From Rubrivivax sp. (GTDB lineage: Bacteria > Pseudomonadota > Gammaproteobacteria > Burkholderiales > Burkholderiaceae_C), in assembly GCA_016790425.1 (NCBI GenBank), contig JAEUPF010000033.1, positions 1 through 42,882 of the forward strand: a stretch of DNA of 42,882 nt, given 5' to 3'. The position numbers were made by a program, and so were the translations under genes. Below the pieces are notes generated by a model, which was not told the DNA's origin, made no database searches, and saw only the letters and a program-made list of their open reading frames with translations. Position 1 is the stretch's first letter. Each line of letters starts with the position of its first letter. Shown here piece after piece: positions 24,287 through 34,672 of the stretch.

Positions 24287-25570
24287 TCAACTCAGCTCGT
24301 GCGCGCCGCCTTGCTGGCGCGGCGCCTTGCGCACCACCGGGTCGGCCGCCGTCGCCGCGGCCAGCGCGACATACACGGCCGCGAAGGCGGCCACCGCCCA
24401 CGGCCCGCCCCAGTGCTCCAGCGCCCAGCCGCACGCCAGCGCCCCCAGCGGGTTGAGCGCGTGCGCGATGAGCCGGAAGCTGCTGTGCACGCGCCCTTGC
24501 AGCCCGTCGGGGATCAACGCGATGCGGTAGGCGAGCTGAACCACGTTGTAGACCGGCCCGACGAAGCTCATCAGCGCGAACACAACGCCCAGCCACAGCG
24601 GCCCGGGGCACAACGCGAACAGCGGGAACAGCAGCGCCTGCGCGGCGATGACGCCGATGATCACCTGCCCGAAACCGAACCGCCGCGCGATGGCCCCGCC
24701 CGCCGCCGCGCCGGCGATGGCGCCGATGCCGCCGAGCGAGAACACGAGGCCGATCTCGGCGTCGCTTGCGCCCAGGCGCTTGGCCAGCACGATCAGCACC
24801 AGCGGCGTCGCCGCGTTGACGAAGTTCAGCCCGCTCGTGATCAGCGCCATGTCGCGCACGAGCCGCTCGCGCCACAGCCAGCGCAGCCCTTCGGCGACCT
24901 CGGCGCGCAGGTCGCGCCGCTCGTTGCGTGCAGCCGCCGCCGGCGTGAACGACGTCTTCATGCGCGCCAGCAGCAGCGCCGCCGAAGCGTGGCACAGCAC
25001 GTCGAGCACGAACGGCCAGGCGCGCCCCGCCGCCTGGAACAGCCAGGTGCCCAGCGGCGGCCCCACCACCGCCGCGGCGGCATAGCCGGCCATGTTCTGC
25101 GCTGTCGCCTCGGGCAACTGCGGCGCGGCCACAACGCGCGGCAGCGCCGCCGTCTCGGCGATGTTGAAGAAGACGTGCAGCGCGCCTTCCACAACGGCCA
25201 CGGCGTAGATCAAGCCCACCGTCAGCACGTCGAGCCCGATCGCCAGCGGCAGCACCGCCACCGCAGCGCAGCGGCCCGCGTGGCACAGCATCATCACGCG
25301 CTTGCGGTCCCAGCGATCGACCAGTGCCCCCACCGGCAGGCACAGCAGCAGGAACGGCACGATGCGCAGCGCCGTGGCCCAGCTGGCCAGCGCCGGCGAG
25401 CCGGTGAGCGCCAGGATCAGCAGCGGGTGGATGATGCCGGCGGCCGAGGCGCCGACGGTCGCCGTCACCTGCCCGCCCCACAGCAGCAGGTACTCGCGCT
25501 GGCGCCACACGGGCGGTGGCGGCGCGGCGGCCACGCCGGGCACCGGCTCTCGCCTCGCGCCGTCGTTCAC
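24287..25570 (-). CDS. MFS transporter, EntS/MFS_3-like exporter
   Basis: A 427-residue major-facilitator protein with about 12 membrane segments. The loop after segment two has the family signature DRWDRKRVM (about 86-94). The middle loop (about 205-240) is charged, and the second half repeats the pattern with GRVHSSFRL. The overall type (single-domain, drug or siderophore exporter) is clear; the substrate is not. The start is a GTG at 25570 overlapping the parC stop as GTGA, so it is coupled to parC. A pairing of an exporter with a topoisomerase subunit is unusual. Its C-terminus converges on the small exported gene at 24244 across 42 bases. Confidence 0.85.
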
Positions 25571-27885
25571 AGCAGCCGCGTCGGCTTCTGGAAGCCCTCG
25601 ATCTTGTGCCCCTTGCGCGCGCGCCGCGCCACGTGGCCGGCCAGTTCAGCCTTGCCGAGCGTCTCTTCCTTCGCCTTGCCGCCACGCCCCTGCCCCTGCA
25701 CGCGCAAGGTTGCGGCGAACGTCGCCACCGAGACGAGCGGGGCCTTCGCGTCGACGTCGATCAGCGTCAGCCCGCGCCCGCCGTTGCTCTGCAGCTTCAG
25801 CTCCTCCAGGCCGAAGACGAGCAGGCGCCCGTCCAGCGAAAGACACGCCACCTGCGCGTGCTCGGGCAGCACCGTCACCGGCGGCAGCAGGTGCTCGTTC
25901 GCTTCCAGCGCAAGGAAACTCTTGCCGCCGCGGTTGCGCCCGTGCAGGTCGCCGGCCTTCGCCAGCAGCCCGTAGCCGCCGGTGTTGGCCAGCAGCAGCG
26001 TCGTCTCGGCCGGCCCGGCGAGGTACTGCACCGGCTGCGTCCCCGCTTCGAGGTCGATCAGCGTGGTGATCGGCTGCCCGTCGCCGCGGCCGCCGGGCAG
26101 CGCCGAAGCAGCGACGCTGTAGACGCGGCCGTTGCTGCCGAACACCACCAGCGTGTCGACGCTGCGACAGGCGAAGGTGCCGTACAGCTCGTCGCCGGTC
26201 TTGAACTGCAGCGTCGCCGCCTCGACCTCGTGCCCCTTCAGCGCGCGCACCCAGCCCTTGCGGCTGACGACCACCGTCACCGGTTCGTCGACGACGCGGA
26301 TCTCGGCCACCGCGCGCTTCTCTTCCTGCACCAGCGTACGGCGCGCATCGCCGAACTGCTTCGCGTCGGCTTCGATCTCTCTGGTCACCGTGCGCTTCAG
26401 CGCCGCCGGGCTGCCGAGGATCTCTTCGAGCTTGCCCTGCTCGCCGCGCAGGTCCTTCAGTTCCTGCTCGATCTTGATGCCTTCCAGCCGCGCCAGCTGC
26501 CGCAGCCGGATCTCGAGGATGTCCTCGGCCTGGCGGTCGCTGAGCTTGAAGCGCGCGATCAGCGCGGGCTTCGGCTCGTCGGCGTTGCGGATGATCCGGA
26601 TCACCTCCTCGATCTTCAGCAGCACGAGCTGCCGGCCTTCGAGCACGTGGATGCGGTCGAGCACGCGCGCCAGGCGGTGGCGCGTGCGCCGCTCCACGGT
26701 GGCGAGGCGGAAGTCGAGCCACTCGCGCAGGATCTGCCTGAGGCCCTTCTGCACCGGACGGCCGTCGCGGCCGACCATCGTCAGGTTCAGCGGCACGCTC
26801 GATTCGAGGCTCGTGTGCGCGAGCAGCGTCGTGATCAGCTCGGCCTGCTCGACGGTGCGGCTCTTCGGCTCGAACACGAGGCGCACCTTGGCTTCCTTGC
26901 TGCTCTCGTCGCGCACCGCGTCGAGCACGGCGAGCACCGTCTGCTTGAGCTGCACCTGTTCCTGCAGCAACGCTTTCTTGCCGGCCTTGACCTTCGGGTT
27001 CGTCAGCTCCTCGATCTCGGCCATCACCTTGGCCGCACTCGTGCCCGGCGGCAGCTCGGTGACGACGAGCTGCCACTGCCCGCGCGCCAGGTCCTCGATG
27101 ACCCAGCGTGCGCGCACCTTCAGGCTGCCGCGGCCGCCGGCGTAGGCGTCGCGCAGCTCGGCGGCACTGCTGATGATCTGGCCGCCGCCGGGGAAGTCGG
27201 GCGCCGGCAGCAGCTCGGCCAGTTCGTCGTCGCTGAGCTTGTCGCTCTTCAGCAGCGCCACCGCCGCGGCCGCCACCTCGCGCAGGTTGTGGCTCGGGAT
27301 CTCGGTGGCCAGGCCCACCGCGATGCCGCTGGCGCCGTTGAGCAGCACGAACGGCAACCGCGCCGGCAGCAGCGAGGGCTCTTCGGTGCTGCCGTCGTAG
27401 TTCGGCCGCCAGTCCACCGTGCCTTCGTCGATCTCGTCGAGCACCAGGCGCGCGATCGGCGCCAGCCGCGCTTCGGTGTAGCGCATCGCCGCGGCACCGT
27501 CGCCGTCGCGGCTGCCGAAGTTGCCCTGGCCATCGACCAGCGGGTAGCGCTGGCTGAAGTCCTGCGCCATGCGTACCAGCGCGTCGTAGGCGGCGATGTC
27601 GCCGTGCGGGTGGAAGCGGCCGAGCACGTCGCCCACCACACGGGCGCTCTTCACGGGCCTGGGCGCACCGCCGCCGCCGGCGCCGAAGGTCAGCCCCATG
27701 CGGTGCATCGCGTACAGGATGCGCCGCTGCACCGGCTTGTCGCCATCGCACACGTCGGGCAGCGCGCGGCCCTTCACCACCGACAGCGCGTATTCGAGGT
27801 AGGCGCGTTGCGCGTAGTCGGCCAGCGGCAGCGTGTCGGCGGGGTCGGGGGGAACGTGGGGAACGGGATCGAACAGGTCAGGCAT
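25567..27885 (-). CDS. parC: DNA topoisomerase IV subunit A
   Basis: A 772-residue type IIA topoisomerase subunit that decatenates daughter chromosomes with ParE. The catalytic tyrosine is Tyr126 in [11 protein letters not shown]. The breakage-reunion domain has [14 protein letters not shown] and the quinolone-pocket helix [20 protein letters not shown]. The C-terminal part carries beta-propeller blades. The helix position equal to E. coli Ser80 is Ile97 (codon ATC), and the Glu84 position is Asp101. A Gly-rich stretch at about 69-76 (GAGGGGAP) precedes the helix, as in betaproteobacterial ParC proteins. ATG 27885 gives a natural start. parE is not adjacent. Confidence 0.95.
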
Positions 27886-28045
27886 GGGTCAGGGGGCACG
27901 CACTTGCGGAGCTTCGCAGCCCGGCCATCGAGGCGCCGCGCGACTCGCGGACGGCCGGGCAAGCCACGGCGCCGAAGCGGCCACGGCCGGCCCGGCAGGT
28001 TCGGTGCCCGCGCCGGCAGGCGAAGGGCCGCGATTCTCGCCCAGG

Positions 28046-28051
28046 TACAGT
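28046..28051 (+). promoter_or_regulatory. Possible -10 element close to the DUF599 start
   Basis: TACAGT ends 9 bases before the ATG at 28061, and no Shine-Dalgarno sequence lies between. If used, transcription would begin at or within a few bases of the start codon, giving a leaderless or nearly leaderless message. No good -35 is seen. Confidence 0.3.
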
Positions 28052-28060
28052 TCCGCCCCG

Positions 28061-28777
28061 ATGGCGACCCTGGTCGAACTGGCGCGCGTGCTGCCCTGGC
28101 CCGACTGGCTGGCGCTGGTGGTGCTGTTCGGCGGCTGGGCCGCCTATGCCCGCTTCGCGAAGCAGCGCTCGACGGTGCGCCCTTCGCTGCTGGACGCCAC
28201 CAACCGCGAGCGCCGGCGCTGGATGAGCGAAGCCACCGTCCGCGAGAACCGCATGCTCGACGGCATCGTCGTGCAGAACCTCAGCTCGCCGCCGGCGTTC
28301 TTCGCCTCGACGACGATCCTCATCGTGGGCGCGCTGCTGGCCGCGCTCTTCGCCGGCGACAAGGCGAGCGAGTTCGTGCGCGAAGTGCCTTTCGCCGCGC
28401 GCACCAGCGTGCTCGTGTTCGACCTCAAGCTCGTCGTGCTGGCGGCGATCTTCGTCTTCGCGTTCTTCCGCTTCACCTGGAGCGTGCGGCAATACAGCTT
28501 CGGCGTCATCCTCGTGGCCACGCTGCCGCCGCGCGCGGCGTTCGAGCACGACACGGCCGCGCGCGAAGCCTTCGCCGACCGCGCCGGGCGGCTGGTGGGC
28601 CTGGCCGCCGAATCGCTCAACGACGGCATCCGGGCCTACTACTTTTCCTTCGCCGCCGCGGCCTGGTTCGTCTCGCCGTGGATGTGCCTGGCCGCCACCG
28701 CCGGCGTGGTGTGGGTGCTGTACCGGCGGGAGTTCGAAAGCGACGTGTTGAAGGTGCTGACCGAGCCGCGGGGGTAG
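28061..28777 (+). CDS. DUF599 family membrane protein
   Basis: A 238-residue protein with membrane segments at about 10-28, 75-97, 122-143 and 185-217. The cytoplasmic-looking stretch NRERRRWMSEATVRENRMLD (47-66) and the following NLSSPPAFFASTTILI are typical of DUF599, as are FFRFTWSVRQYSF and the LNDGIRAYYF segment. The family is widespread in proteobacteria without an assigned function. ATG 28061 starts just before the first hydrophobic segment, although the frame is open further upstream. It is divergent from parC (175-base gap) and converges on the HTH-citrate synthase gene. Confidence 0.85.
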   Translation: MATLVELARVLPWPDWLALVVLFGGWAAYARFAKQRSTVRPSLLDATNRERRRWMSEATVRENRMLDGIVVQNLSSPPAFFASTTILIVGALLAALFAGDKASEFVREVPFAARTSVLVFDLKLVVLAAIFVFAFFRFTWSVRQYSFGVILVATLPPRAAFEHDTAAREAFADRAGRLVGLAAESLNDGIRAYYFSFAAAAWFVSPWMCLAATAGVVWVLYRREFESDVLKVLTEPRG

Positions 28778-28838: not shown

Positions 28839-30314
28839 TCACTCGTCTTCGCCCACGAACCGCGCCCGCGGCCGCAGCACCGCGGGCGAGGCTTGCTGCT
28901 CCAGCACGTGGGCCACCCACCCGGCCGTGCGGCCGATGGCGAACAGCGCCGGGCCGAAGCCGAGCGGCAACTCCAGCGCCGCGCAGGCGGCGGCGATGGC
29001 CACGTCGACGTTCGGCTTCGGCCGCCCCGTGGCCTGCACCGCGTCGGCCACGGCGAGCACCGTGCGCAGCCGCGGCGAGCGCGGCGCCAAGGCGATGGCG
29101 CTGTCGCCGAGCGGTGGCACGCGCGGATCGCCGAGCGGGTACAGCGGGTGGCCGAAGCCGGGCAGCCGTTCGCCGCGCCGCAGGCGCTCGCCCACCGTCG
29201 CCGCGGCACGCGCCGGCTCGCCGGCTTCGCGCACCAGCCACTCCACCTGCTCGCTGGCGCCGCCGTGGCGCGGACCGCTGAACGCCGCCAGGGCGGCGCT
29301 GAGGCAGGCGTGCAGGCTGGCGCCGGTGGAAGCCGCCACGCGGGCGGCAAAGGTGGAGGCGTTCAGTTCGTGGTCGGCGGTGAGGATGAGCGCGGTGCGC
29401 AGCACTTCCATCGCCTTGCGCTTGCGTTCCGGCACGCCGAGGGCACGGGCCAGCGCCAGCACCGGGTCGGCGGTGTCGAGCGCCGCCGGCAGCCGGCGCG
29501 CATCGACGGCGAGCGCCACCGACGCCGCCAGCAGCGGCACGAGAAAGCGCGCGCGCGCCAGCACGGCAGGCGGCTCGGCGTCGAAGCGCAGCGGGTCGGC
29601 CGCGGCCAGCAGCGGCAGCGCCAGCGCCAGCACCTGCAGCACGCCGGGCAGCTGCTGGCCGGGGCCGGCAGCGGCCCCGCGCAGCAGGCGCGCGAACTCG
29701 CGCGAGGCCAGGGCCCGCGCCGCCTCCTTCCGCGGCAACGCGGTCGCAAGCGTGCCCTGCGATCCGGCCAGCGACGCGGCCAGCGACGCGGTTGGCGACG
29801 CGGTTGGCGACGCGGTTGGCGACACGGCCGGCGACGCGCTTGGCATCGCGGTTGGCAGCGCCCGGGGCAACGCCGACTTCAGCGATGACCGGGCCCGCGC
29901 CGGCGCCCCGGCTTCCCAGCGCGGCCTCGCCGTCGGCAGTTCGCCGCGCCACAGCAGTTCGGCCACCGCCTCGAACGAATGGCCTTCGCGCACGAGGTCG
30001 GTGGCCAGCCGGCCGCGGTACGCGGGGCCGGCCGCCGTCATCTGGGTGATGCGCGTCTCCAGCACCGGCTCGCCGTAGCGCAGCGCGCTGGCTGCCGGCC
30101 CGGCGCTGCGCGCGCGCAGCGGCTCGAGGTCTGCACGCCGGTAGCGCCTCTCGCCGCGGCCGCGCGCCTGGGCCGCGGCGGCTGCCGGCGCGAGCCGGCT
30201 CTTGACGAGGCCGCGGCTGACGTAGGCATACAGCGTCTCGCGCTTGACGCCGAGCCAGGCGGCCGCCTCGGCGGTGGTGAGCCAGTCGGAAGGGTCGGCA
30301 GCGGGCTTGGCCAT
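28839..30314 (-). CDS. Citrate synthase-fold protein with N-terminal DNA-binding HTH domain
   Basis: A 491-residue fusion. Residues 11-45 (WLTTAEAAAWLGVKRETLYA, then YVSRGLV) are a MerR/excisionase-type helix-turn-helix with a wing containing ERRYRRADLE. Residues 75 onward are a citrate synthase fold with the catalytic set apparently intact: His350 in GPRHGGASEQ, His389 in GFGHPLYPLGD and Asp437 in NVDVA, plus DHELNASTFAAR. Residues about 145-192 are a Ser/Pro/Thr/Ala repeat inserted between the two parts of the small-domain region. ATG 30314 is the first start before the HTH and has no Shine-Dalgarno sequence. It is divergent from another citrate synthase-like gene. A metabolite-sensing autoregulator, an enzyme, or both are possible. 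Confidence 0.85.
   Translation of the reverse strand: MAKPAADPSDWLTTAEAAAWLGVKRETLYAYVSRGLVKSRLAPAAAAAQARGRGERRYRRADLEPLRARSAGPAASALRYGEPVLETRITQMTAAGPAYRGRLATDLVREGHSFEAVAELLWRGELPTARPRWEAGAPARARSSLKSALPRALPTAMPSASPAVSPTASPTASPTASLAASLAGSQGTLATALPRKEAARALASREFARLLRGAAAGPGQQLPGVLQVLALALPLLAAADPLRFDAEPPAVLARARFLVPLLAASVALAVDARRLPAALDTADPVLALARALGVPERKRKAMEVLRTALILTADHELNASTFAARVAASTGASLHACLSAALAAFSGPRHGGASEQVEWLVREAGEPARAAATVGERLRRGERLPGFGHPLYPLGDPRVPPLGDSAIALAPRSPRLRTVLAVADAVQATGRPKPNVDVAIAAACAALELPLGFGPALFAIGRTAGWVAHVLEQQASPAVLRPRARFVGEDE
29765..29868. repeat. Degenerate 12-bp tandem repeat inside the HTH-citrate synthase gene
   Basis: About eight to nine units of a 12-base motif (best copies GCGGTTGGCGAC; variants GCGGCCAGCGAC, ACGGCCGGCGAC, GCGCTTGGCATC) run through positions 29765-29868. 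Three consecutive central copies are identical. Read on the coding strand they give the four-residue pattern S-P-T-A and relatives. Because 12 is a multiple of three, copy-number change would keep the frame. Confidence 0.9.
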
Positions 30315-30321
30315 GGCCGGG

Positions 30322-30350
30322 ATGTTGATCCGCCGATCAAGATTGATCAA
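30322..30350 (-). promoter_or_regulatory. Palindromic operator overlapping a promoter in the divergent citrate synthase gap
   Basis: Three half-sites lie in a row on the plus strand: TTGATC (30325-30330), four bases, GATCAA (30335-30340), two bases, then the palindrome TTGATCAA (30343-30350). On the minus strand TTGATC (30350-30345) and CAACAT (30327-30322) are exactly 17 bases apart, the ideal sigma-70 spacing, and CAACAT ends 7 bases before ATG 30314. A repressor on these sites would block this promoter and sit 17-42 bases before the plus-strand start at 30367. The HTH domain of the adjacent gene is the obvious candidate ligand. Confidence 0.6.
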
Positions 30351-30366
30351 CCCGTTTCGCGCGCGC

Positions 30367-31674
30367 ATGATGAGCGCCATGCCGACCATCGCTCCTGCAC
30401 TCGCCGCCCCCTCGTCCGCCTCGTCCGGCTCGCCCACCGTGTCCACCGCGCCCACCGTGTCTACCGCGTCCAAGGCGCCCACCGCGGCCGCAGCGGCCGC
30501 ACTCCCGAAGGGGCCCGCAGCCCCCGCCGGCGGCATCGAGCCCCAGCCAGCCGCAGGCCCCGGTGGCCTCGAAGGCATCGTCGTCGCCGACACGCTGCTC
30601 AGCGACGTCGACGGCGAGCGCGGCCGCCTCGTCGTGCGCGGCCACGATGTCGAGGATCTCACCGGCCGCTGCGACTTCGAAGCGATGTGCGCGTTGCTGT
30701 GGACGGGCGAGTTGCCGGCCGCGGGCGAAGCGAAGCACGCCGCGCTGCGCGCTGCGCTCGGCCAGGCGCGGTTGCGCGCGTGGCAGCGCCTGCCGAGCCT
30801 GGGCGACGCGCTCGCCGCCGACGACGCGATGGAGGCGCTGCGCGCGGCGCTGGCGCACTGGCGCTGCCCGGCCACGATGGACGCCGCCACCGCGCGGCTC
30901 GACCTGTCCGCGGCGATGGCCGTCTTCGCGGCCGCGTGGGCTCGCCGCCATCACGGCGAACCCCCGCTGCGGCCCGACGCGACGCTCGGCCACGCGGCCG
31001 ACTTCCTGCGCATGGCCGCCAGCGGCTCGGCCGATCCATTCGCCGCCGCCCGCGCCGCGGCGCTCGACGCCTACCTCGTCACCGCCGCCGACCACGGCAT
31101 GAACGCTTCGACGTTCACCGCGCGCGTCGTCGCCTCCACGCAGTCCGACGCGGTCTCGGCCGTCGTCGCCGCCCTCGGCGCGCTGAAAGGGCCGCTGCAC
31201 GGCGGCGCACCAGGCCCCGTGCTCGCGATGCTCGACGCCATTGGCGAGCCGGCCAACGCCGCGCCGTGGATCGCGAAGCGGCTCGCCGCGGGCGAACGCA
31301 TCATGGGCATGGGCCACCGCGTCTACCGCGTGCGCGACCCGCGCGCCGCGGTGCTGGAAGCCGCCGTCGAGCGCCTGCAGGCGGCCGGCGTGGCGAGCCC
31401 CCGCCTGGCGCTGGCGCGCGCCGTCGAGGCGGTGGCCACCGCGTCGCTGCGCGAGCACCGGCCCGAGCGGCGCATGGCCGCCAACGTGGAGTTCTACACC
31501 GCCGTCATCCTCGACGCGGTGGGGTTGCCGCACGAGCTCTTCACCGCCACCTTCGCCGTCGCGCGCGTGGCCGGCTGGCTGGCCCACTACGACGAGCAGC
31601 GCGCGCACGGGCGGCTGATCCGGCCGGCGTCGCGCTACGTCGGCGCGCTCCCGCCGGGCCCGCAGGCGGCGTGA
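30367..31674 (+). CDS. Citrate synthase / 2-methylcitrate synthase-like enzyme
   Basis: A 435-residue protein. Residues 1-68 are low-complexity Ala/Pro/Ser/Thr sequence with no homology. The citrate synthase fold begins at about GGLEGIVVADTLLSDVDGER (67-86). Catalytic histidines are His278 in GPLHGGAPGP and His317 in GMGHRVY. The position of the catalytic aspartate is Glu375 in NVEFYTAV, which may be a subfamily trait. DHGMNASTF (242-250) is conserved. ATG 30367 (or 30370) is the first start after the operator, but a later start nearer the fold cannot be excluded. It is divergent from the HTH-containing homologue and ends six bases from the convergent ligase gene. Confidence 0.82.
   Translation: MMSAMPTIAPALAAPSSASSGSPTVSTAPTVSTASKAPTAAAAAALPKGPAAPAGGIEPQPAAGPGGLEGIVVADTLLSDVDGERGRLVVRGHDVEDLTGRCDFEAMCALLWTGELPAAGEAKHAALRAALGQARLRAWQRLPSLGDALAADDAMEALRAALAHWRCPATMDAATARLDLSAAMAVFAAAWARRHHGEPPLRPDATLGHAADFLRMAASGSADPFAAARAAALDAYLVTAADHGMNASTFTARVVASTQSDAVSAVVAALGALKGPLHGGAPGPVLAMLDAIGEPANAAPWIAKRLAAGERIMGMGHRVYRVRDPRAAVLEAAVERLQAAGVASPRLALARAVEAVATASLREHRPERRMAANVEFYTAVILDAVGLPHELFTATFAVARVAGWLAHYDEQRAHGRLIRPASRYVGALPPGPQAA
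30433..30468. repeat. Two 18-bp direct repeats in the N-terminal coding tail
   Basis: CCCACCGTGTCCACCGCG at 30433-30450 is repeated at 30451-30468 with one base changed. It encodes the P-T-V-S-T-A pattern in the low-complexity N-terminus of the citrate synthase-like protein and keeps the frame. Confidence 0.85.
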
Positions 31675-31680
31675 ACGCGC

Positions 31681-33354
31681 CTACTTCGCAAACCGCTCGC
31701 GTAGCTTCAGCTTCCAGAACTTGCCCGTGCTCGTTCGCGGCACGGCGTCGATGACTTCATAGCGCTCGGGAAGCTGCCACTTCGCGAAGCCGCCCTGGGC
31801 CAGCAGCATCGCGTTCAGCGCCTCGGGCGTGGCGCTGGCGCCATGCTTGAAGGCGATGCAGGCCAGCGGCCGCTCGCTCCATTTCTCGTCGGGAATGGCG
31901 ATCACCGCGGCCTCGGCGATGGCCGGGTGCGCCATCAGCGCGTTCTCCAGGTCGACCGAGCTGATCCACTCGCCGCCGCTCTTGATCAGGTCCTTCGTGC
32001 GGTCGGTGATGCGCAGAAAGCCGAGCGCGTCGATCGTCGCCACGTCGCCGGTGCGCAGCCAGCGCTCGCCCTCGCCGCCACCGGCGCGGCCGCCGTCGCC
32101 GGCGTCGCCGGCGAACTTGTCGGCCGTCACCGGCACACCGTGGTACGAGCCGGTGATGAACGGGCCGCGCACCTGGATCTCGCCCATCGTGCGGCCGTCG
32201 GGCGGCACTTCGGTGCCGCCTTCGGTGCGCAGGCGCAGGTCCACCAGCGGCGCCGGCACTCCGGCCATCGCGGCGCGGCGGTAGCGCTCGTCGCTGCCCG
32301 CGCCGGCCAGTTCCTGGCGCGGATAGCTCACGGTGGCCAGCGGGCTCGTCTCGGTCATGCCCCAGCCTTGCAGCAGCCACACGCCGTGCCTGTCGAAGGC
32401 GCGGATCAGCGCCTCGGGCACCGCCGCGCCGCCCACCAGCGAACGCATGCCGCGGGGCAGCTTCCAGCGCCCGGGCTGCTCGGCGAGCGCGCGCTCGTAG
32501 GCCTGGATCAGCCCGAGCCAGATGGTCGGCACGCCCAGCGCCAGCGTCGGCGGCTCGATCTGCATCAGGTCGAGCAGGTCGTCGGGATGCAGGTGCGGGC
32601 CGGGGAAGACGATCTTCACGCCCATCATCACCGCCGCGTAGGGCGTGCCCCAGGCGTTGGCATGGAACATCGGCGCCACCGGCAGCAGCACGTCGGTGTT
32701 GCGCATCGCCCAGTAGTCGGGCTGGTTGCCCACCAGCGTGTGCAGGATCGTGCTGCGGTGCGAATAGGCCACGCCCTTGGCCTTGCCGGTGGTGCCCGAC
32801 GTGTAGCACATGGACACCGGGTCGTCCTCGTCGTGCGCCGCGTAGCGGAAGTTCGCTTCGTCGGCCGCCGAGACGCCGGCCAGCAGCGCTTCGTAGTCGG
32901 TGAACTCGGCGGGCACCGGCGCGCCCGAGAACGGAACGACGATGACGCGCTCGAAGCGGTGCAGCGGCGCGAACTGCCGGTACAGCGGCAGCAGGATGTC
33001 GTCGACGACGAGGAAGCGGTCGTTGGCGTCGGCGGCGATGGCACCGATCTCGGCCGGCGCCAGGCGCAGGTTCAGCGTGTGCATCACGCCGCCGGCCGCG
33101 GGAATGCCGAAGTAGCACTCCAGGTGGGCGTGGTGGTTCCAGCACAGCGTCGCGACGCGCTCGCCCTTCAGCAGGCCGAGCGCCGCCAGCGCCGCGGCGA
33201 GCGTGCGCGTGCGGCGATGCCACTGCGCATAGCTGTGCCGCACGAGGCTCTTGTCGGGCCGGCGCGAGACGATCTCGCTGGCCGCGAAGTAGCGCCCGGC
33301 GCGGTCGAGCAGGTGGTTCAACGACAGCGGCACGTCCATCATCGTCGTCTTCAT
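31681..33354 (-). CDS. AMP-forming acyl-CoA ligase (fatty acid-CoA ligase type)
   Basis: A 557-residue ANL-superfamily enzyme that activates a carboxylic acid with ATP and CoA. The P-loop region is [11 protein letters not shown] (184-194). Later motifs are GWGMTETSP, the RTGDVATID hinge region and [16 protein letters not shown]. The adenylation lysine is the Lys in [12 protein letters not shown] near residue 545. Medium- or long-chain fatty acids are likely substrates from its AlkK-like length and motifs, but chain length cannot be read. ATG 33354 has AAGGAG 9 bases upstream; the frame is open beyond it. A Gly-rich insertion ([14 protein letters not shown]) precedes the hinge. It is divergent from the DSD1-type gene. 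Confidence 0.9.
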
Positions 33355-33520
33355 GCGGCACTCCTTGGCGGGCGCGGGCCGATCCCGCGGGCACGATGAG
33401 CCGGCGGGCGCGGTGCGTGGCCGGCGGGCGCGGTGCGCCGGCGTTGCGCGGTCAAGCTTGGCGGCACCGCCGCCGCGGCACCAGCGGGTCAAACCCGGCG
33501 CGCCGGCGCCCGCGCTCGGG

Positions 33521-33526
33521 CACACT
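33521..33526 (+). promoter_or_regulatory. Possible -10 element close to the DSD1-type gene start
   Basis: CACACT ends 6 bases before ATG 33533, which has no Shine-Dalgarno sequence. Transcription from it would give a leaderless message. The match to TATAAT is poor and there is no -35, so this is a weak candidate whose value lies in its spacing. Confidence 0.22.
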
Positions 33527-33532
33527 CGGCGC

Positions 33533-34672
33533 ATGACCCCGAGCATCGCCGCCCTCGACACGCCTTGCGCCCTCATCGACGAAGCGCGCATGGACCGCGC
33601 CATCGCCCGCATGCAGCAGCGCATGGACTCGCTCGGCGTGGCGCTGCGGCCGCACGTGAAGACGGCCAAGTGCATCGAGGTGGCGCGCCGGCAGCGTGCC
33701 GCCGGCGCCCGCGGCATCACCGTGTCCACGCTGAAGGAAGCCGAGGAGTTCTTCGCCGCCGGCTTCGACGACGTGCTCTACGCGGTGGGTCTGGCGCCGC
33801 AGAAGATCGCCGCCGCATTCGACCTCGTTCGCCGCGGCTGCCGGCTGTCGGTCGTCGTCGATTCGGTCGCCGCGGCGCAGGCGCTGGCCGCCGCCGCGCG
33901 CCGCGACGGCGCGCGCATCGGCACGCTCATCGAGATCGATGTCGACGGCCACCGCGCCGGCGTGGCACCCGATTCACCGCTGCTGCCGCAGATCGGCCGC
34001 CTGCTGCACGGCGCGGGGCTGCTGGCTGGGGTGATGACGCATTGCGGCGCCAGCTACGAGTGCCGCGGCGAGGCCGCCCTGGTGGCCATGGCCGAGCAGG
34101 AGCGCGCGCGCTGCGTCGCTGCCGCCGAGCGGCTGCGCGCCGCCGGGCTGCCGTGCCCCGCGGTCAGCGTCGGCTCCACGCCCACCGCGCTCTTCGCGCG
34201 CACGCTGGAAGGCGTCACCGAGGTGCGCGCCGGCGTCTACGTCTTCCACGACCTGGTGATGGCGGGGCTGGGCGTCTGCGCGCCCGAGGACATCGCGCTC
34301 ACGGTGCTCGGCACGGTCATCGGCCACCAGCGCGACAAGGGCTGGGTGCTCACCGACGCCGGCTGGATGGCGCTGAGCCGCGACCGCGGCACGCAGGCGC
34401 AGCCGCTCGACCAGGGCTACGGCCTCGTCTGCGACGAGGCGGGCGGCGTGCTCGAAGGCTGGATCGTCAACCAGGCCAACCAGGAACACGGCATCGTCGA
34501 ACACCGCCGCGGCGCCGCGGCCGCCGGCGACGTCGAGGCCCGCTTCCCGATCGGCACGCGGCTGCGCATCCTGCCCAACCACGCCTGCGCCACCGCCGCG
34601 CAGCACGCCGGCTACGCGGTGATCGAAGGCGGCAGGGTCCAGGCGCGCTGGCCGCGCTTCAACGGCTGGTAG
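33533..34672 (+). CDS. DSD1-family PLP enzyme (D-threonine aldolase / D-serine dehydratase-like)
   Basis: A 379-residue fold-III PLP enzyme with an alanine racemase-type barrel. It begins with the typical LDTPCALIDEARMDRAI. Lys43 in LRPHVKTAKCIEV is the Schiff-base lysine. VSVGSTPT is the phosphate-binding loop, and His350 and Cys352 in LPNHACATAAQH form the metal site that marks D-threonine aldolase and eukaryotic-type D-serine dehydratase. Sequence alone does not separate these two activities. The ATG at 33533 begins exactly at the conserved start. It is the first of three closely spaced genes ending in ridA. RidA clears enamine products of PLP dehydratases, which mildly favours a dehydratase role. 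Confidence 0.85.
   Translation: MTPSIAALDTPCALIDEARMDRAIARMQQRMDSLGVALRPHVKTAKCIEVARRQRAAGARGITVSTLKEAEEFFAAGFDDVLYAVGLAPQKIAAAFDLVRRGCRLSVVVDSVAAAQALAAAARRDGARIGTLIEIDVDGHRAGVAPDSPLLPQIGRLLHGAGLLAGVMTHCGASYECRGEAALVAMAEQERARCVAAAERLRAAGLPCPAVSVGSTPTALFARTLEGVTEVRAGVYVFHDLVMAGLGVCAPEDIALTVLGTVIGHQRDKGWVLTDAGWMALSRDRGTQAQPLDQGYGLVCDEAGGVLEGWIVNQANQEHGIVEHRRGAAAAGDVEARFPIGTRLRILPNHACATAAQHAGYAVIEGGRVQARWPRFNGW

Follow-up and report, generated by a model that had tools for sequence, protein, structure and literature searches.

A citrate synthase fold fused to a helix-turn-helix domain as a probable ligand-sensing transcription factor with a conserved intergenic operator

The window analysed here is a stretch of 42,882 nucleotides from Rubrivivax sp. 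(contig JAEUPF010000033.1 of assembly GCA_016790425.1), which carries a gene for a protein, here termed HTH-CS, in which a MerR/BldC-type winged helix-turn-helix (HTH) domain is joined to a citrate synthase (CS) domain, and this gene is transcribed away from that of a stand-alone CS. HTH-CS is very probably a one-component transcription factor with the CS fold as its sensor and its operator in the intergenic DNA; on the comparative evidence a sequence-specific, mostly local and autoregulatory factor would be by far the best reading. The computed observations behind it are the fusion, the fold, the divergent layout, the conservation of the operator and its tie to HTH-CS, a peak of -10 hexamers at 17 bp and the retention of the arginines. 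The features that the argument needs are as follows.

28839 to 30314, minus strand: HTH-CS gene, 491 amino acids, MerR/BldC-type winged HTH and CS domain fused
30105 to 30284, minus strand: winged HTH domain, residues 11-70 (Pfam HTH_17, separate model, Foldseek and VIA-align rows)
28842 to 30074, minus strand: CS-fold domain, residues 81-491 (Pfam, alignment, model and Foldseek)
30325 to 30347, no strand: putative operator TTGATCCGCCGATCAAGATTGAT, read as TTGAY-N6-RTCAA-KA-TTGAY, for which the family usually has a spacing of 7
30336 to 30347, no strand: putative operator core ATCAAGATTGAT, a near-perfect 12-bp palindrome matching ATCAAKATTGAY
30367 to 31674, plus strand: stand-alone CS of the PRK12350 / Bacillus subtilis CitA type, start at 30367, 30370, 30379 or later

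That a palindromic operator lies between the two genes was part of the original prediction, and the site at 30325-30347 bears this out, as the exact ATCAAKATTGAY core occurs only once in the 4.3-Mb draft genome (82% complete), at 30336-30347, with 0.035 occurrences expected from the base composition of the window, and the palindrome is therefore not a product of chance. Across 105 regions upstream of HTH-CS genes the words ATATTGAT, ATCAAGAT and TTGATCAA are found in 47, 41 and 39 respectively, whereas a shuffled set gives 0.1-0.3 and the coding controls 0-1, and a matrix iterated on these regions gave ATCAAKATTGAY, a 12-bp palindrome. Allowing up to one mismatch, 80 of the 105 regions contain this core; it turned up in 3 of 1050 shuffled sequences and in 2 of 525 windows drawn at random from these loci. 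In the hold-out the exact 12-mer was recovered at 34 of 44 loci, and at 35 with up to one mismatch, against none of 880 shuffles; the shuffled controls preserve base composition and not dinucleotides, and all counts given here are uncorrected for relatedness. Training of the motif excluded four duplicate loci (L122-L124 and L129), the hold-out was reduced from 45 to 44 by removing L200, which overlapped with training, and L119 (training) and L204 (hold-out) were scored as misses partly through a wrong-frame piece of an open reading frame (ORF). By taxonomic group, the core with up to one mismatch is present in 14/14 Xanthomonadales, 18/22 Alphaproteobacteria, 19/29 named Burkholderiales and 21/25 further genomes of the order of the window (window included), but in 1/4 Myxococcota and 0/2 Actinobacteria, these groups being interpretive assignments with many of the records metagenome-assembled genomes (MAGs).

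The core is commonly preceded by a left half-site, TTGAY, which stands 7 bp ahead of it in 87 of 114 operators and 6 bp ahead in the window. Of the 59 genomes chosen for their HTH-CS, 46 contain the extended pattern TTGAYN{6,8}RTCAAKATTGAY, and so does 1 of the 59 chosen as lacking it (Fisher p ~2e-19, a value likewise uncorrected for relatedness), the positives comprising 12 of 21 HTH-CS genomes within the order of the window and 34 of 38 outside it. The chosen genomes were 21 of the 22 strong-match genomes of the order (G136 being left out) and 38 of 45 others, the seven omitted (G709, G549, G778, G453, G720, G790 and G487) forming a low-scoring group that lacks the core, and the 59 controls were hand-picked to have no match at E <= 1e-12 and a size broadly similar by eye, two of them (G092 and G155) carrying weak HTH-CS matches in ORFs of 353 and 176 amino acids. 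As the extended left half-site was chosen after inspection of profiles that included hold-out loci, it is the test of the core alone that constitutes a strict hold-out. Of the 50 extended sites 46 lie within 250 bp of a match to the HTH domain, which suggests a regulon of exact sites that seldom extends beyond the local divergon. The co-conservation of HTH-CS and operator is strong comparative evidence for putative binding of the protein to the intergenic DNA.

An earlier form of the pattern that allowed a spacing of 6 only, run on 399 genomes of the order and 398 of the phylum, was rejected as too loose and wrongly spaced for most members; its matches lay at HTH-CS loci in 3 of 11 cases in the order and 2 of 5 in the phylum, and it was replaced by the spacing of 6-8. 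Seven loci (L191-L196 and L216) form a low-scoring HTH-CS subgroup that lacks both the operator core and several of the catalytic residues, with L195 and L196 additionally altering the nearly invariant VSRG of the HTH, and this subgroup may read a different operator. One genome has an exact extended operator (G321:C3:429994-430017) 2.9 kb from its second HTH-CS gene, a possible second target site.

The position of the operator relative to candidate promoters is also informative. When TATAAT-like hexamers (at least four matches, including A2 and T6) were sought in the target direction, 19 of the 114 operators had one 17 bp past the right half-site, compared with 7 at 18 bp, 4 at 16 bp and 0-3 at each remaining spacing between 8 and 33 bp. 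This peak indicates that the right half-site, TTGAYN, probably doubles, for some of the family at least, as the -35 element of the target promoter. In the HTH-CS direction the counts peak at 9 bp (17/114), a position within the conserved left part of the operator and hence uninformative. Within the window the corresponding element would be as follows.

30343 to 30371, plus strand: predicted promoter of the partner CS, -35 TTGATC at 30343-30348, 17-bp spacer, -10 CATGAT at 30366-30371

This predicted promoter is weak, matching 8 of 12 consensus bases and falling below the threshold of a simple scan, which reported none; its -10 hexamer covers the start codons at 30367 and 30370, and a start at 30379 or later would therefore be likelier. 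On the other side, the HTH-CS start codon lies 10 bp from the start of the left half-site and 21 bp from that of the core. Such a geometry suits the occlusion of both promoters. Classical MerR regulators bind between a -35 and a -10 separated by a long spacer (19-20 bp), and the HTH-CS operator has no such placement.

Turning to the protein itself, both parts of the fusion were predicted from the sequence of the window alone and both stand. HTH_17 matches residues 11-64 at 32.1 bits (Pfam cut-off 27), with MerR_1 at 18.5 bits falling under its own cut-off of 21.6, and Citrate_synt scores 224.9 bits, above the Pfam cut-off, with its best stretch at residues 225-483 and a second stretch besides. 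By alignment the active-site positions are H315, H350, H389, R398, D437, R462 and R481, so that the predicted catalytic set of His350, His389 and Asp437 is present in the window protein, though not family-wide. HTH-CS nevertheless scores under every CS and citryl-CoA lyase cut-off listed in NCBIfam, the best being TIGR01800 at 180.4 against 421.3 bits. An AlphaFold2 model made with 60 relatives as input has a mean predicted local distance difference test (pLDDT) score of 83.3, with the HTH and the CS domain both high, and in Foldseek the whole model retrieves citrate and 2-methylcitrate synthases. The HTH modelled separately (residues 1-80, mean pLDDT 71.8) has a winged HTH fold, and its leading rows in Foldseek and VIA-align are BldC, SoxR, RacA, HiNmlR and Xis with modest scores; a profile search of the PDB gave nine weak matches, mostly of the MerR type, headed by SoxR (E 0.0064). 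The HTH segment TLYxYVSRG is invariant across 40 aligned HTH-CS sequences and altered in few others (L195, L196 and L213). The model falls below a pLDDT of 50 across much of residues 140-218, which is the region of the following insert.

29771 to 29856, minus strand: 12-bp-based tandem repeats, low-complexity insert (repeat scan; pLDDT below 50 in the model)

These repeats have units of 12, 24 and 36 bp, encode a Ser/Pro/Ala/Thr-rich segment and have no counterpart in six aligned relatives.

The family to which this protein belongs is large. When 84,980 species genomes were scanned with a profile of the N-terminal HTH-CS region, at least 587 confirmed relatives emerged, and the best 80 of the 587, which were examined, come from Burkholderiales, Alphaproteobacteria, Xanthomonadales, Nevskiaceae, Myxococcota, Chloroflexota, Deinococcota, Actinobacteria and others, with several groups represented by MAGs only and the group names partly interpretive. 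In the phylum of the window 53 of 398 sampled genomes (window included) have a match at E <= 1e-12. In a CS-domain tree all 66 sampled HTH-CS fall on one side of a branch, separate from the CitA-type partners, the prpC-type and other CS, with a Shimodaira-Hasegawa-like approximate likelihood ratio test (SH-aLRT) value of 94, which is just below the 95 mark of the tool, in what is a quick tree with several long branches. The window protein belongs to the family both by its place in this group of 66 and by the exact ATCAAKATTGAY upstream of its gene. The nearest relatives in the tree are myxococcal for both members of the pair, at 52% identity for HTH-CS (to L047) and 61% for the partner (to L044), which suggests that the two genes have travelled together.

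What lies opposite HTH-CS varies. Among 150 loci the opposite strand carries a CitA-type CS in 60, a prpC-type CS in 19 and neither in 71, the two types being defined by scores of more than 200 and of 110-160 bits respectively against P0002 anywhere within the locus; as the loci differ in length (~3-13 kb), the 71 are an upper bound. The pair is thus not confined to the genome in which it was first noticed, and the proposal that HTH-CS controls its enzyme partner is supported; as a description of the whole family it is too narrow, since elsewhere in the family the opposite genes are catabolic genes of other kinds. The nearest upstream gene is divergent in 77 of 105 loci, a count made with a crude gene caller that miscalled some known pairs. 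A Sinimarinibacterium locus (L079) has on the opposite strand a phosphoenolpyruvate mutase/isocitrate lyase-family protein (read as prpB), a prpC-type CS and an aconitase. In the other contexts, where identities rest on ten proteins tested, the gene directly opposite encodes a TctC receptor (L078, where genes for an aldehyde dehydrogenase and a Rieske ring-hydroxylating oxygenase follow at a greater distance), a major facilitator superfamily transporter (L063), a cupin (L070), a family III coenzyme A (CoA)-transferase (L133) or a 2-hydroxyacid dehydrogenase (L142), and at L054 a thiamine pyrophosphate enzyme lies downstream of HTH-CS on the same strand.

Plasmids carry similar arrangements. 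The plasmid pAt of Agrobacterium fabrum C58 carries two genes annotated as citrate synthases in opposed orientation (ATU_RS25365/25370), and genes divergent from HTH-CS encode a CoA transferase on an Ewingella plasmid, ferredoxin, aldehyde dehydrogenase and Rieske proteins on a Massilia plasmid and a "pyruvate carboxyltransferase" on a Deinococcus plasmid. The feature names on these plasmids are citrate synthase, citrate/2-methylcitrate synthase and citrate synthase family protein, with some rows nameless, in the two sets listed (40 of 265 records and 40 of 258); all HTH-CS members with visible annotation are named as enzymes or as citrate synthase family proteins. On an Acidovorax carolinensis plasmid (L218 7010-8232) HTH-CS is annotated as two overlapping ORFs near IS5-family transposases. 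Closer to the window, a whole-protein search of 36 other genomes of its genus found three (G004, G014 and G036) that match in the HTH too, and a second CS was not seen at their loci (L039-L041). Two of these, L040 and L041, have lost His315 and His350 (ISHRDRWQ and VSHRDRWQ) and retain the exact core motif.

The distribution of active-site residues over these contexts suggests that HTH-CS is an enzyme turned sensor, as the three arginines persist in loci where catalytic His and Asp residues have frequently disappeared. Among the 150 proteins R398 is present in 150, R462 in 147 and R481 in 146, and these we take to be equivalent to the substrate-binding arginines of GltA. Histidine is found at position 350 in 102, at 389 in 134 and at 315 in 132, and position 437 is Asp in 106 and Glu in 18. 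All eight checked positions are kept in 56 of 60 proteins opposite a CitA-type CS, in 19 of 19 opposite a prpC-type CS and in 19 of the 71 others, so that loss of catalytic residues is confined almost wholly to the last class. It follows that HTH-CS beside CS or methylcitrate genes keep a CS pocket, and that many at other catabolic genes have an altered catalytic centre with the carboxylate clamp retained.

If HTH-CS acts in this way, its MerR/BldC-like winged HTH would bind TTGAY-N6/7-RTCAAKATTGAY in the intergenic DNA and the CS fold, presumably dimeric as the enzymes are, would act as the sensor. Since the operator adjoins the start codon of HTH-CS at one end and overlaps the predicted -35 of the partner at the other, the unliganded protein probably represses both its own gene and the divergent CS gene. 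The ligand would be a compound that the CS reaction consumes or forms (oxaloacetate, or a tricarboxylate of the citrate type, alone or together with an acyl-CoA), whose binding would close the CS domains, shift the two HTHs and free the promoters. Taking a regulatory role as given, it is quite likely that the ligand is a C4-C7 di- or tricarboxylate of the CS or methylcitrate reaction, and a repressor relieved by its ligand is favoured with moderate confidence.

The opposite sign of control, in which HTH-CS would hold RNA polymerase at the divergent promoter in the manner of MerR and activate upon ligand binding, would accord with the MerR type of its HTH and with the habit of class II activators of binding just upstream of or overlapping the -35. 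It is at odds with the -10 peak at 17 bp and with an operator that is not placed between the hexamers, unlike that of the long-spacer MerR promoters, and a site abutting the start codon of HTH-CS is what would be expected of an autorepressor; activation is therefore doubtful, overall and equally if regulation is granted. A vestigial HTH, or one that binds elsewhere, with the palindrome belonging to another regulator such as one of the FNR/CRP type, would seem highly improbable. MerR-like HTHs do occur in excisionases, in line with the Xis rows, and the half-sites TTGAT and ATCAA equal those of the FNR site, TTGAT-N4-ATCAA. The spacing and order of the half-sites differ, however, being ATCAA-N2-TTGAY in the core and TTGAY-N6/7-RTCAA in the extended site, the extended site follows the presence of HTH-CS and adjoins its gene, and the invariance of TLYxYVSRG is hard to reconcile with a vestigial domain. 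An FNR-type box was accordingly ruled out for the palindrome of the window by spacing and co-occurrence.

Enzymes that also bind DNA are known, PutA and BirA among them, and HTH-CS might likewise be a working citrate or 2-methylcitrate synthase that binds DNA too, with catalysis as part of the signal. The near-complete retention of the eight positions in the CitA- and prpC-type contexts speaks for such a trigger enzyme, as does the Glu that replaces the catalytic Asp in 60 of 60 CitA-type CS gathered; the partner in the window has this Glu (NVEF), as does B. subtilis CitA, and the catalytic residues of HTH-CS are thus more canonical than those of its partner. A partner of the Glu type can nevertheless be active, since CitA, its nearest solved relative, has the same NVEF and the CitA-like CitB of Caulobacter complements gltA (PMC7083601). 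Furthermore 28 of 116 HTH-CS with the core (up to one mismatch) are without the set of His350, His389 and Asp/Glu437, in the alignment none of the 79 HTH-CS in CS or prpC contexts has the F-T pair that is conserved in the compared enzymes (residues 388-389 of the partner), and, as noted, no NCBIfam CS cut-off is reached. A trigger enzyme is thus an unlikely explanation, and a CS-fold sensor remains the preferred one.

For the family as a whole it is likely that CS was turned once, long ago, into a general ligand-sensing module, giving one-component factors of several phyla that mostly use the operator TTGAY-N7-RTCAAKATTGAY. These would first have controlled CS and methylcitrate genes and later, having lost the catalytic His and Asp but kept the arginines that bind carboxylates, been recruited to operons for aromatic compounds, CoA-transferases and tricarboxylate transport, where they would sense other carboxylates.

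Several known systems invite comparison. MocR/GabR regulators also combine a DNA-binding head with a whole metabolic enzyme fold as sensor and are often divergent from their targets, but they have a GntR-type HTH and a class I aminotransferase fold where HTH-CS has a MerR/BldC-like HTH, a CS fold and a different operator. The MerR family (SoxR, CadR, BmrR and TipAL) shares the fold of the DNA-binding domain and differs in that the HTH-CS sensor is a CS fold and its operator overlaps the -35 of a promoter with a 17-bp spacer. With citrate synthase II and 2-methylcitrate synthase (PrpC, TIGR01800) HTH-CS has in common the CS fold and, in the window, the active-site residues; it is set apart by scores far under the cut-offs, the added HTH, the missing F-T pair and a separate tree group. 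B. subtilis CitA has a divergent LysR-type regulator, CitR, and the window resembles this system in its CitA-type partner with Glu for Asp opposite a putative regulator, the regulator of the window being a CS fold and not of the LysR type.

No description of an HTH-citrate synthase regulator family was found in the literature covered, a 2012 comparison of propionate regulation in proteobacteria lying outside that coverage. The nearest parallel is in Caulobacter, where an E. coli gltA mutant is complemented by CitB, which is 37% identical to B. subtilis CitA, and not by CitC, the product of the next locus tag (CCNA_03757/CCNA_03758 being citB/citC; PMC7083601). These neighbouring CS tags, one CitA-like and active and the other inactive in this complementation, resemble the pair in the window, CitC being a possible HTH-CS, and the main text of that paper does not mention a helix-turn-helix. 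In a second study the CCNA_03757 promoter served purely as a negative control for IscR (PMC11475020).

The divergent stand-alone CS was correctly predicted, and the gap of 52 bp holds with a start at 30367, becoming 64 bp with one at 30379. The partner scores 351.6 bits against Citrate_synt and 392.3 against NF009005 (PRK12350, NCBIfam cut-off 332), and its top solved-structure match is B. subtilis CitA (2c6x). Its first ~60 residues (30379-30560) are of low complexity, with 9- and 18-bp repeats at 30410-30486, and the first ATGs may precede its real start. Outside this pair, the host genome contains a CS gene of higher score (456.6 bits) and a short, weakly scoring CS-like match (75.2 bits). 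The flanking ORFs, 27833-28777 (plus strand) and 31681-33729 (minus strand, read by eye as an acyl-CoA synthetase), converge onto the two ends of the pair, so that the divergon looks self-contained; beyond the former lies an ORF at 25567-27885 (minus strand) read by eye as topoisomerase IV subunit A.

Should this account be correct, the fold of a tricarboxylic acid cycle enzyme would serve as the sensor of a widespread transcription factor, giving testable control circuits keyed to oxaloacetate or citrate status. Many annotations of a "second citrate synthase" would then be regulators, with consequences for metabolic models, and for (methyl)citrate and aromatic-acid catabolism the family would provide biosensors that are ready for use and whose operator is known. 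If CitC is indeed an HTH-CS, the Caulobacter data would already part enzyme from regulator.

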